From assembly GCA_963924555.1 (NCBI GenBank), contig OZ004595.1, forward strand, positions 1,674,001 to 1,738,000: 64,000 bases of DNA, read 5' to 3'. Both the position numbers and the translations under genes were made by a program. The number at the start of each line of letters is the position of its first letter. Positions within the stretch are counted from its first letter, which is position 1. The notes under the pieces were generated by a model. That model was given only the letters and a program-made list of their open reading frames with translations. It did not search any database and was not told where the DNA came from. Source of the stretch: Crambe crambe. Its lineage: Eukaryota; Porifera; Demospongiae; Poecilosclerida; Crambeidae. Below, one piece after another: positions 29,673 to 63,767 of the stretch.

Positions 29673-29736
29673 ATGGCGATCTGGAAGATACTCTTCATTG
29701 TTACAGTCGGTTGGCATGTCATCACTGAAGCTGAAG
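29673..29736 (+). CDS. Signal-peptide exon of SRCR gene B
   Basis: ATG at 29673; [20 protein letters not shown], 64 nt, phase 1 end. The donor is GTTAGC, weaker than most. Same length, phase and WK-hydrophobic pattern as the first exon of gene A. Linked to the first SRCR exon by a 2.4-kb intron. Confidence 0.7.
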
Positions 29737-62700: not shown

Positions 62701-63767
62701 GTTATCTAGAATAAATGACTTGACCTAGTAATGGACATATATATACACAATTCTCTAACATTTACCCCCAAACTCTGTCAGTAGTGCTTGGGATTGAGCC
62801 TCAAATGAAACTCCCTCAGGAGCATAGTCATGCTGTACTTGCAACTCTATTAAATTGTATTTCCTAAATGTATTATTAGATGCTCTAGCCATCGGCAGTG
62901 CTGCACTTGGAGCTGGAACTGGACCAATTTTCCTAGATGAGGTTCGATGTCGTGGGACTGAGGTCCGTCTCATCGACTGTCTCGCCAATCCCATTGGCAC
63001 TCACAACTGTGCCCACAGGGAAGATGTTGGGGTCAGATGTATGAGTAAGTTTGTCCTCTTGACTGATAAATAGTTATAATTATCAAACCCATAGTATTAT
63101 ATGCATTTTCGAGATTTGTAGCTATCTATCTTCTTCTTTTTCCTTTCTTCCTGCAGCTCCTTGCGGTCAAGGTGATATCAGATTGGTTGGAGGAACGAAC
63201 CAGTATGATGGACGTGTGGAGGTCTGCAACAACAATGTCTGGGGAACAGTCTGTGATGATTCTTGGGGCACTGCTGATGCCACTGTTGTCTGTCGGCAAT
63301 TGGGATTCTCAACCACTGGTATAAGAATAGTGTAGAAAACTCTGTATAATTATAGTTAAAAATTAGCATGATGAAATTTTTTTGGCAACTTCTTAGCTCC
63401 CCATAATTCACAATTGCTAGTAGCCTTGGGGATGAAAGTTGATGAGGAGATAGTCCAACCATTATAAAATCCATGGGAGAATTTTAAAATGATCTCTAAA
63501 TTCCATGCTTGAGAAATGGTAACCTTACTAGAAGTGGGATTGTTATCTGTGACTGCCACAATTATAACTGAATGTTATATTGATCAAATTAAGGTGCAAG
63601 AGCCTTCACCAATGCTTTCTTCGGTCGAGGTGTTGGAGCTATCATCCTTGATGATGTCCGATGTGTTGGAACTGAGACAAGACTATTCAGTTGTCCTCGA
63701 AACGCTCTTGGTTCTCATAACTGTGTCCATGCAGAGGATGCAGGAGTCAGATGTAATCCACCACCAG
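29673..63767 (+). CDS. SRCR gene B: giant secreted or surface protein with 46 SRCR domains, 83 exons seen
   Basis: A signal exon plus 82 SRCR exons, all with GT-AG borders and all phase 1, give about 5,032 codons. Each domain has eight Cys: C-T-x-G, GRVE-(I/V)-C, WGTVC, (A/V)-C-RQL, (V/A)-x-C-RGTE, (D/S)-C-P, HNC and VRC. Six match the group A SRCR set; the first two are an extra pair. Most domains are split by an intron after RQLGFSTTG, as in group A genes. Domains 1-10 lie mostly in fused 318-330-nt exons; later ones use paired half-domain exons; domains 28 and 37 are single exons. No other domain type and no membrane segment is seen. Long SRCR arrays act as scavenger, pattern-recognition or adhesion receptors; sponge aggregation receptors contain SRCR arrays. 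Ligands are unknown. Confidence 0.88.
30006..30322. mobile_element. Degenerate MITE with CAGTGGCGTAGGAA end
   Basis: The left end CAGTGGCGTAGGAAG and right end GTTCCTACGCCAGTA are inverse copies with terminal mismatches. G-runs are inside. CAGTGGCGTAG ends are common in hAT-derived elements. No clean target duplication. Confidence 0.5.
30878..30903. other. 26-bp perfect palindrome with (GC)5 core
   Basis: ATATTTATGCGCG and its exact inverse, centred on alternating GC. It could form a cruciform or Z-DNA. It sits in intron 1 of gene B, 1.2 kb after the signal exon. Confidence 0.8.
32116..35929 (+). CDS. Gene B exons 2-9: SRCR domains 1 to 7
   Basis: Exons: 32116-32274, 32330-32659, 32716-33045, 33106-33429, 33498-33815, 33988-34314, 34745-35068, 35768-35929. 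Six consecutive fused exons carry the second half of domain n and the first half of n+1, so the interdomain introns have been lost and the intradomain introns kept. Domains 1-4 are nearly identical to one another in protein, in DNA and even in the three introns 32275-32329, 32660-32715 and 33046-33105. Domain 5 has RQLRLTG in place of RQLGF. Domains 5 and 7 use GNNIIWLD in place of GVGQIWLD. The long introns 34315-34744 and 35069-35767 show only AT-rich sequence and a dispersed-repeat piece near 35480-35655. Confidence 0.88.
36322..37738 (+). CDS. Gene B exons 10-13: SRCR domains 8 to 10
   Basis: Exons: 36322-36483, 36589-36912, 36977-37294, 37580-37738. Two fused exons resemble exons 5 and 6 closely, including the PSTS donors and the LVNI(T/I)GA acceptor context. 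This points to duplication of a multi-exon block: domains 3-5 are paralogous to 8-10. The intron 35930-36321 before it is AT-rich without features. The intron 37295-37579 carries G21. Confidence 0.86.
37372..37392 (+). repeat. Poly-G run (G21) with GGGGA extension
   Basis: 21 consecutive G followed by AGGGGGAGGGG units to about 37415. It lies 78 bp after the donor of gene B exon 12, on the transcribed sense strand. Confidence 0.9.
37925..40648 (+). CDS. Gene B exons 14-21: SRCR domains 11 to 14, a two-domain duplication
   Basis: Exons: 37925-38086, 38392-38559, 38633-38794, 38962-39129, 39263-39415, 39789-39953, 40221-40385, 40487-40648. Domains 11 and 13 share [19 protein letters not shown] (Ile in place of the usual Arg of CRQ) and second halves of the AVPDG type with TEDRL/VEDRL and ECRNRG. 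Domains 12 and 14 share RQLRL. So a 12-like domain follows each 11-like domain, the signature of a two-domain tandem duplication. The introns 38087-38391 and 39416-39788 are AT-rich; the second has G25. Confidence 0.87.
39480..39504 (+). repeat. Poly-G run (G25)
   Basis: 25 consecutive G, 64 bp after the donor of gene B exon 18. Confidence 0.95.
40712..43278 (+). CDS. Gene B exons 22-31: SRCR domains 15 to 19
   Basis: Exons: 40712-40870, 40935-41096, 41171-41326, 41384-41545, 41666-41821, 41880-42041, 42295-42450, 42513-42674, 42864-43022, 43111-43278. Regular pairs of half-domain exons. Domains 15-18 are near-consensus and close to domains 1-4; the intron 42451-42512 is a copy of the intron at 32660. 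Domain 19 differs: [16 protein letters not shown] and a second half [16 protein letters not shown]. Confidence 0.9.
43363..46189 (+). CDS. Gene B exons 32-39: SRCR domains 20 to 23
   Basis: Exons: 43363-43524, 43709-43873, 43962-44117, 44180-44356, 44421-44582, 45143-45307, 45780-45935, 46025-46189. Second halves of domains 20 and 21 are the [15 protein letters not shown] type; domains 22 and 23 return to the TSGFTNG type. The introns 44583-45142 (polypurine) and 45308-45779 (inverted repeat) are described separately. Confidence 0.9.
44743..45105 (+). repeat. 360-bp polypurine minisatellite (GGGAGAAGGGAAGGGAGG)
   Basis: Almost pure G/A on the gene B sense strand, with units of about 20 bp. 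It fills most of the intron between the two halves of domain 22. Long frames read through it on both strands are compositional artefacts. Confidence 0.95.
45351..45527. repeat. Inverted repeat / MITE-like hairpin
   Basis: GCTATTTCGAACGGCAGGGC at 45351 and its inverse GCCCCGCCGTTCGAAATAGC ending at 45527, 24 bp with one mismatch. The loop is about 130 bp. No clear target duplication. It lies in the intron 45308-45779. Confidence 0.6.
46255..49418 (+). CDS. Gene B exons 40-47: SRCR domains 24 to 27
   Basis: Exons: 46255-46413, 47009-47188, 47561-47716, 47821-47985, 48213-48371, 48470-48631, 48706-48867, 49242-49418. Domain 24 begins [10 protein letters not shown] and [10 protein letters not shown]. 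Domain 25 has [12 protein letters not shown]. Domain 27 uses [15 protein letters not shown] and a [10 protein letters not shown] insertion. The introns 46414-47008 and 47189-47560 are filled by minisatellites; 48868-49241 holds G24. Confidence 0.89.
46414..46815 (+). repeat. Minisatellite (GTATACTAGAATCAGAACAGG)
   Basis: About 12 imperfect units built on TAGTATACTAGAATCAGA with spacers GGTTCACACA or GAGCTACAG, in a nested order. It fills most of the intron between the two halves of domain 24. Confidence 0.85.
47228..47470 (+). repeat. Minisatellite (CCCACATTGTAGCTAATACAAGATGGTTTGT)
   Basis: About eight units of roughly 32 bp, degrading at both ends. It fills most of the intron between domains 24 and 25. 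Confidence 0.85.
49051..49074 (+). repeat. Poly-G run (G24)
   Basis: 24 consecutive G in the intron splitting domain 27. Confidence 0.95.
49761..49911. mobile_element. 151-bp TA-flanked MITE
   Basis: Left CCGTATAGCGCGATATTTTCGTGGGT, right the inverse ACCCACGAATTTTTTTCGCTATATGG (each over 20 bases, imperfect), flanked by TA. It lies in the intron 49419-50139. A related TTTTCGTGG / CCACGAAA vocabulary recurs at 6465-6500, 8895-9025 and 49985-50080. Confidence 0.6.
50140..53721 (+). CDS. Gene B exons 48-56: SRCR domains 28 to 32
   Basis: Exons: 50140-50469, 50603-50752, 50945-51109, 51532-51690, 51991-52155, 52425-52583, 52657-52824, 52999-53154, 53554-53721. Domain 28 is encoded in a single 330-nt exon without the usual internal intron and carries [10 protein letters not shown]. 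Domains 31 and 32 have [16 protein letters not shown] second halves. Introns 51110-51531, 51691-51990 and 53155-53553 are AT-rich without visible features. Confidence 0.89.
53836..57451 (+). CDS. Gene B exons 57-65: SRCR domains 33 to 37
   Basis: Exons: 53836-53994, 54142-54312, 54635-54793, 55072-55236, 55473-55640, 55997-56164, 56594-56752, 56897-57070, 57131-57451. Domain 33 has [10 protein letters not shown] and a [15 protein letters not shown] end. Domain 35 has [11 protein letters not shown]. Domain 37 is a single exon close to the N-terminal consensus, unlike its divergent neighbours. Introns 54313-54634 and 56165-56593 show nothing; 55641-55996 has a tandem duplication. Confidence 0.89.
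55264..55340. repeat. (GT)n microsatellite
   Basis: More than 30 GT units, 28 bp after the donor of gene B exon 60. Confidence 0.95.
55655..55990 (+). repeat. Imperfect tandem duplication reaching a splice acceptor
   Basis: AATAACATGTTGAAGTAGA occurs at about 55664 and 55815. GAAAGTTATTGTATTGGGGAAAGGGTGATGATGCTATAA (39 bp) occurs near 55773 and again near 55946, just upstream of exon 62. Period about 150-175 bp. Confidence 0.75.
57591..60581 (+). CDS. Gene B exons 66-75: SRCR domains 38 to 42
   Basis: Exons: 57591-57746, 57808-57969, 58064-58219, 58303-58485, 58586-58744, 59222-59395, 59466-59621, 59817-60011, 60116-60277, 60408-60581. Domain 38 is near-identical to domains 1-4 and 18, including its intron (57747-57807), so it is a recent arrival among divergent neighbours. 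Domains 39-42 vary in loop length; exon 73 is the longest half-domain exon (195 nt, [19 protein letters not shown]). Intron 58745-59221 has three copies of CCTAGTAGCCTTAGGGT (59076-59128). Confidence 0.88.
59682..59835 (+). repeat. Four copies of an acceptor-exon junction (AG|GAGCCATCCCCCTT)
   Basis: The motif y-AG-GAGCCATCCCCCTT appears at about 59691, 59724, 59773 and 59817, each preceded by an AT-rich TTAC/TACTAC/ATAATAG tract. The last is the start of exon 73. The first, read in the gene's phase, meets a TGA, so the upstream copies look like decoys. Confidence 0.7.
60857..63767 (+). CDS. Gene B exons 76-83: SRCR domains 43 to 46
   Basis: Exons: 60857-61015, 61208-61372, 61631-61789, 61873-62046, 62376-62537, 62880-63044, 63157-63318, 63594-63767. 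These domains are the most divergent: [73 protein letters not shown]. Domain 43 ends EDASITC in place of EDAGVRC. Intron 62047-62375 and 62538-62879 show no features. Confidence 0.88.

Follow-up and report, generated by a model that had tools for sequence, protein, structure and literature searches.

A predicted giant membrane receptor gene with 77 SRCR domains and its two paralogues in the sponge Crambe crambe

The DNA analysed here is a stretch of 64,000 nucleotides from the sponge Crambe crambe (contig OZ004595.1 of GCA_963924555.1, positions 1,674,001 to 1,738,000; G000:C18:1674001-1738000 in our numbering), hereafter the window, from a genome of 143 Mb in 119 contigs. It contains the first part of a very long plus-strand gene, which we call P77. 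P77 is probably a single gene for a giant type I membrane receptor, predicted to consist of a signal peptide, 77 SRCR domains, at least three fibronectin III (FN3) domains, one transmembrane (TM) helix and a cytoplasmic tail with NPLY and YAEL motifs. It would be one of three duplicated genes, the other two being named M64 and R62 below, and would act in multivalent capture together with uptake or signalling. As a whole we regard this reading as likely, though well short of certain. The unbroken reading frame, the architecture, the shared domain order and the purifying selection can all be read from the predicted gene sequences themselves.

The P77 gene inside and beyond the window

SRCR domains were searched with two half-domain profiles, which started from the first SRCR domain and were refined iteratively on reading frames of the window itself. 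On the plus strand, between 32121 and 63754, these profiles find 46 first and 46 second SRCR halves in strict alternation, the weakest at 1.3e-21. All 92 half-domains in the window also match Pfam SRCR (PF00530), which places them in the SRCR superfamily. The spliced model within the window has 83 exons, i.e., a signal exon and 82 SRCR exons, and encodes about 5,032 residues with no in-frame stop. A first-pass annotation of the same DNA had counted 46 SRCR domains over 82 exons and about 5,030 residues, with neither a frameshift nor an in-frame stop, and the profiles and the spliced model agree with all of this.

However, the same annotation took these 46 domains and about 5,030 residues for the whole protein and saw no other domain in it. 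Exon 83 ends at 63767 with CCACCAG followed by GTAAGAG. As this is a splice donor and not a stop, the gene goes on past the window edge. Adding 50 kb on each side of the window, we carried the model on in the same numbering (window-equivalent positions). P77 then extends 24.6 kb past the right edge, to window-equivalent 88571. The SRCR halves continue unbroken in order to 84817, giving 154 halves, or 77 domains, where those past the window edge were detected by our own profiles and not each by Pfam.

After the last SRCR domain follow exons that match their counterparts in the mirror gene M64 by BLASTP. The C-terminal parts of P77 and M64 match Pfam fn3 with 97 and 85 bits, in three stretches each. 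The TM segment of P77 starts at residue 8984 and is followed by a tail of about 80 residues that contains NPLY and YAEL and ends ...ENPLYAEHEEVGPSYAELQ...DPPKDDY. The refined model has 152 exons and encodes 9,091 amino acids (about 960 kDa, computed) with no internal stop, and the 150 introns after the first are 55-721 bases long. Thus, the very long pure SRCR array that had been proposed is indeed continuous and unusually long, but it is not SRCR-only, as FN3 exons, a TM segment and a cytoplasmic tail follow it. This also illustrates how truncation at a fixed window edge can make a gene look complete if a splice donor follows its last visible exon. The features of P77, all on the plus strand, are:

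29673..29736, plus strand: exon 1 with the start codon, predicted signal peptide and phase-1 donor; the most hydrophobic signal-like exon of 27000-32100
29737..32115, plus strand: intron 1, the longest in P77 at 2,379 bases (spliced model)
32116..63767, plus strand: exons 2-83, i.e., SRCR domains 1-46 of 77, with phase-1 introns; exon 2 spans 32116-32274 (profiles, Pfam and spliced model)
50140..50469, plus strand: exon of SRCR domain 28, without an intron inside the domain (spliced model)
57131..57451, plus strand: exon of SRCR domain 37, without an intron inside the domain (spliced model)
32274-32330, 32659-32716, 33045-33106, 42450-42513 and 57746-57808, plus-strand gene: mutually alike inner introns (sequence comparison)
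63768..64000, plus strand: start of intron 83, which ends at window-equivalent 64040 (spliced model)
window-equivalent 84648-84830, plus strand: last SRCR exon (extended model)
window-equivalent 87709-87890, plus strand: predicted transmembrane exon (extended model)
window-equivalent 88569-88571, plus strand: stop codon (extended model)
window-equivalent 88686, plus strand: AATAAA, 115 bases past the end of P77 (sequence)

The inner introns of recently copied domains resemble each other, starting with GTATAG or GTATAA and ending with TTAATTAG or TTAATCAG. It follows that whole domain units, including the intron, were duplicated or converted. No Rfam family matches the window at the gathering threshold.

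The introns of the refined P77 model comprise 149 GT-AG and 2 GC-AG introns, in phase 1, which is partly circular, since the splice solver used only GT/GC donors and AG acceptors, preferred or demanded phase 1 and avoided stops at junctions. As a control, every SRCR junction was rescored with an untrained consensus and no phase preference. Phase 1 is then possible at all SRCR junctions of the three genes (139/139 in P77, 115/115 in M64 and 112/112 in R62) and is the best choice at 137, 114 and 111 of them, respectively, with median scores of 8-10 bits. For P77, phase 0 fits at just 65 and phase 2 at just 77 of the 139 junctions, with medians below zero. The counts of signal exons, TM exons, motifs and alignment columns given below, as well as dN/dS of close pairs, were computed on the first version of the model.

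Two paralogues with a shared domain order

M64 is a mirror gene on the minus strand, with 64 SRCR domains, 128 exons and 7,723 amino acids, and with the same FN3-TM-tail architecture as P77. The two genes are divergently oriented and their starts lie about 24.5 kb apart. Its features in the window are:

5078..5141, minus strand: exon 1 with predicted signal peptide and phase-1 donor; the nearest good candidate, resembling that of P77
1..4751, minus strand: first SRCR exons; the gene runs on beyond the left window edge to -37824 (profiles and spliced model)

An alternative, more hydrophobic signal candidate is found at 12743-12674, 7.6 kb further upstream. When anchored on mutually matching peptides, the C-terminal exons of P77 and M64 have identical intron phases, 1,2,1,1,1,1,0,2,0,2,0. 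The identity between the two proteins is 38% in the FN3 part, 87% in the TM segment and 59% in the tail, and the NPLY motif is present and kept in both.

The third giant gene, R62, lies on the minus strand of the same contig, about 2.3 Mb away (G000:C18:4076970 down to about 4039900), and was read from its signal exon to a TM-like segment at 4039934. Between 4076812 and 4046222, 124 halves alternate without interruption and make up 62 SRCR domains. The FN3 part is matched twice over at this locus. Its signal exon (MELWKSLFSVFFYIQLFRLSSSQ), picked by likeness and donor score, is similar to those of the other two genes, and two more hydrophobic, overlapping signal candidates lie about 580 bases upstream of it.

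The order of the domains is shared between the three genes. M64 and R62 correspond one to one, with 60/60 reciprocal best hits at offset 2 and a mean identity of 0.84 over the last 31 pairs, compared with 0.52-0.54 at neighbouring offsets. Among domains P47-P77, 25 of 31 pick their M64 partner at offset 13 and 26 of 31 their R62 partner at offset 15, while the maximum same-offset count over 1,000 shuffles is 5; for P42-P77, the expected M64 partner is picked by 26 of 36. The outer 41 domains of P77 have no such alignment, as only 1/41 (M64) and 0/41 (R62) agree at these offsets. The window edge falls by chance between P46 and P47, where the clearly shared block starts. The domains without an inner intron also coincide (P60/P64/P66 with M47/M51/M53 and R45/R49/R51), and M64 and R62 have seven of eight such domains in common.

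Selection was estimated from aligned domain pairs. For the 62 pairs of M64 and R62 the pooled dN/dS is 0.146, with none above 1 and a largest value of 0.304. Between P77 and M64 (31 pairs) it is 0.16, at a dS of 1.7 that is near saturation. For the closest domain pairs in P77 and M64 (99 pairs with at least 85% identity, from 21 domains), the median dN/dS is 0.20, again with none above 1. The coding sequence is under purifying selection with no sign of diversification, and diversifying selection is rejected, as dN exceeds dS in 0/99 close pairs and 0/62 pairs of M64 and R62.

The simplest history compatible with these alignments would start from an ancestral gene in which at least about 31 SRCR domains already stood in their present order. 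A duplication would then have split P77 from the line of M64 and R62, after which the outer part grew separately, and a later whole-gene duplication would have given rise to M64 and R62.

Two explanations would make the length of the array only apparent. SRCR genes of this genome do stand in tandem, and two five-SRCR groups with their own signal exons lie directly downstream of P77, so that P77 could be several shorter genes end to end that merely resemble one. Internal starts were scanned for in introns of at least 90 bases after exon 2 and compared with the opposite strand and with shuffles. The introns of P77 contain 4 signal-like candidates (two being one exon with two ATGs), compared with 4 for the opposite strand and 4.45 for shuffles, and those of M64 contain 2, compared with 3 and 2.3, i.e., there is no excess in either gene. 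A signal exon inside an intron, which the first-pass annotation had named as a sign of several shorter genes, is thus met at chance level, and the reading as one array stands. Terminal exons with a TM segment and a stop are found in 0/140 SRCR introns of P77 and 0/116 of M64, a comparison of low power, as the shuffles give 0.25. The same scan does recover the signal exons at the start of P77, at the start of M64 and between P77 and the downstream five-SRCR groups. With signal exons at the gene starts and none above chance inside, the array appears to have a single start and a single end. The introns of P77 after the first are moreover at most 721 bases long, and unbroken arrays are retained in three paralogues, which makes a row of shorter genes very unlikely. 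Alternatively, the array could have been lengthened by false tandem expansion during assembly, as the protein identity between domains reaches 98%. However, the longest within-array megablast self-match at at least 90% identity is 380 bases, i.e., one unit, the array lies on a 6.6-Mb contig, and the domain order agrees across three loci, so that an assembly artefact is more improbable still.

SRCR class and relation to known proteins

The cysteine and column statistics refer to the 141 domains of P77 and M64. The six common SRCR cysteines (C2, C3, C5-C8) are present in 141/141 domains in five columns and in 140/141 in the sixth. Two additional cysteines are nearly universal, one at the N-terminus (140/141) and one in VEIC/VEVC (141/141), and 137 of the 141 domains have exactly eight cysteines in the refined model. 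At the positions that distinguish group B there is no cysteine in any of the 141 domains, neither at C1 (two residues before GRVE) nor at C4 (after LG), where F is found 94 times, Y 30 times, L 14 times and other residues three times. Group B, the group of CD163, DMBT1 and CD5/CD6, is therefore rejected. Group A (MARCO, LOXL2) has six cysteines and no others conserved; here the six are present, plus the two nearly universal extras. A seven-cysteine "group C" with one extra C1 has been described in Amphimedon by Peng et al. 2024 (PMC10855680), compared with the eight cysteines found here. The VE.C cysteine is present in 54/54 SRCR first halves of the R62 cluster and in 0/22 from a 20-kb part of a cluster on contig C3. 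The N-terminal and the VEIC cysteines may pair with each other in an additional disulfide.

Compared domain by domain, the best match among solved structures is LOXL2 of group A (114 bits), followed by CD6 (112 bits) and MARCO (104 bits); CD163 reaches 84 bits. Acidic residues are kept as well, with D after TVC in 134 and 117 of the 141 domains and, in EDAG, E in 117 and D in 138. SRCR domains bind Ca2+ through such acidic residues.

Combining domain order and cysteines, the three genes could represent a near-megadalton receptor family in which all three genes inherited an inner block of about 31 domains in fixed order, comparable to a ruler, P77 rebuilt its outer part through domain duplications of its own, and the SRCR domains are of an eight-cysteine type, neither group A nor group B, with probably an extra disulfide between the N-terminal cysteine and VEIC. 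This combined picture has in our view an even chance of being right.

CD163 has 9 SRCR domains and CD163-L1 has 12, and CD163-like class I scavenger receptors in general carry numerous group B SRCR domains extracellularly (PMC8721182). Like P77, with its signal peptide, TM segment and tail, CD163 and CD163-L1 are type I membrane proteins with tandem SRCR domains, and CD163 chains come out on top among solved structures by score summed over domains (E 1e-159, query domain 2). However, P77 has 77 domains instead of 9-12, lacks the group-B cysteines C1 and C4, and has an FN3 stalk and another tail. P77 is therefore not classified as a CD163-like class I scavenger receptor, as its domains are not group B and FN3 stands between the array and the TM segment.

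DMBT1 (gp340, salivary agglutinin) shares the tandem SRCR array, but it is secreted and combines 14 SRCR domains with CUB and zona pellucida (ZP) domains, while P77 has a TM segment. Neither CUB nor ZP is found among the Pfam matches of the C-terminal parts, and P77 is not assigned to DMBT1. Multivalent bacterial binding by DMBT1 takes place through the stretch GRVEVLYRGSW (PMC3100851); the counterpart of these 11 residues takes 105 distinct forms in the 141 domains, the commonest being found in 13. The putative aggregation receptor of Geodia cydonium is, like P77, a sponge membrane protein with SRCR domains (PMC4557014). P77 is not of this type, as no short consensus (sushi) repeats are found among the C-terminal Pfam matches.

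It is already known that SRCR domains have expanded in sponges and echinoderms, that they occur with FN3 and that SRCR genes are clustered. Large families, often with FN3 and in tandem clusters, have been described in Amphimedon, Stylissa, Strongylocentrotus and Holothuria (PMC10855680, PMC4772301, PMC8242945, PMC6208332). The Amphimedon cluster described in detail has 2-6 SRCR domains per gene (PMC10855680), and proteins of the sea cucumber Holothuria glaberrima have 1 to 51 SRCR domains and up to 5,981 amino acids (PMC13228809, preprint). P77, with 77 SRCR domains and 9,091 amino acids, exceeds these. In the available excerpts of the open-access literature no SRCR count above 51 is given, while a longer unnamed prediction may exist in the sequence databases. 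Nor do the excerpts of the compared literature on SRCR expansions mention a conserved domain order between paralogous giants.

Proposed function, surrounding loci and significance

P77 would most likely be a multivalent endocytic receptor that captures microbes or matrix. SRCR domains bind bacteria and polyanions. We suggest that the ectodomain could form a long multivalent arm with many similar SRCR faces, each binding weakly and probably depending on cations. The sum of these weak faces would give strong capture of polyanionic surfaces, such as bacteria, modified glycans or matrix. After capture, the NPxY/YxxL-type tail could lead to clathrin-type uptake or to phosphotyrosine signalling. Sponge SRCR genes are bacteria-responsive and choanocyte-enriched in Amphimedon (PMC7308585), and stabilin-2 uses an NPxY-like motif for endocytosis (PMC8721182).

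The main rival of this capture-and-uptake reading is a giant adhesion or aggregation receptor, in which the array would bind matrix or aggregation factor of the sponge itself, with the tail connecting to the cytoskeleton, similar to what has been proposed for Geodia. Indeed, the membrane aggregation receptor of Geodia cydonium has both SRCR and short consensus repeat (SCR) domains (PMC4557014), and NPxY motifs in cytoplasmic tails are bound by talins (PMC11597407). Purifying rather than diversifying selection and a fixed domain order would also fit a structural ligand. However, there is no SCR/sushi domain among the Pfam matches of the 631- and 637-residue C-terminal parts, and on balance we find an adhesion receptor rather unlikely, although it has to be taken seriously.

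A number of observations weigh against the main reading, that of a giant capture receptor from a family of three duplicated genes. The splice sites are modelled, and nine junctions differ between model versions, eight of them in P77 or M64 and one in a neighbouring gene. The NPLY and YAEL motifs are short, and the role given to them rests on analogy. The close pairs are without positive selection, so that a pathogen arms race is not favoured over a structural role. Two domains, P09 and P74, have seven cysteines. Of the 31 inner domains of P77, six miss their expected M64 partner, for example P50, which pairs best with M41, and the intron losses in P28, P37, M40 and R52 are unshared. Finally, a genome search with the TM-plus-tail part of P77 finds P77, M64 and one weak match on contig C9 (E 0.0015) and nothing at R62, so the tail of R62 differs.

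Other putative genes lie between P77 and M64. In this region (5.2-29.6 kb of the window), Pfam was run on 81 of the 84 open reading frames of at least 62 amino acids, with Ig_3 matching two of them and I-set, Ig_2, ig and Calx-beta one each; two weaker matches are to HTH_23 and SUIM_assoc. Directly downstream of P77, on the plus strand, the two five-SRCR groups span window-equivalent 88861-95741 and 102275-108706. The introns of these downstream genes contain short tandem repeats at window-equivalent 94035-94879 (in steps of about 56 bases) and 103906-104396 (about 26 bases). Their signal exons are:

window-equivalent 88861-88933, plus strand: predicted signal exon of the first downstream five-SRCR group (signal-exon scan)
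window-equivalent 102275-102329, plus strand: predicted signal exon of the second downstream five-SRCR group (signal-exon scan)

Elsewhere in the genome, the FN3 region of M64 has matches at G000:C18:1786-1795 kb (minus strand), C10:454/707/912 kb and C8:686 kb, the three places on C10 having 85-89% identity over 54-55 residues. These appear to be scattered copies or pseudogene fragments of the receptor's FN3 part. Among the best 150 candidates per search, further SRCR clusters are found at C20:5.3-5.8 Mb, C8:1.27-1.32 Mb and C9:1.18-1.21 Mb.

If transcribed as modelled, the three genes would encode the largest SRCR receptors that we have found described, with 77, 64 and 62 SRCR domains compared with 51. 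Three paralogues that keep about 31 domains in strict order, and at least 60 in one pair, would offer a test of whether such an array is held for its reach, for its number of binding faces or for a position-specific ligand.

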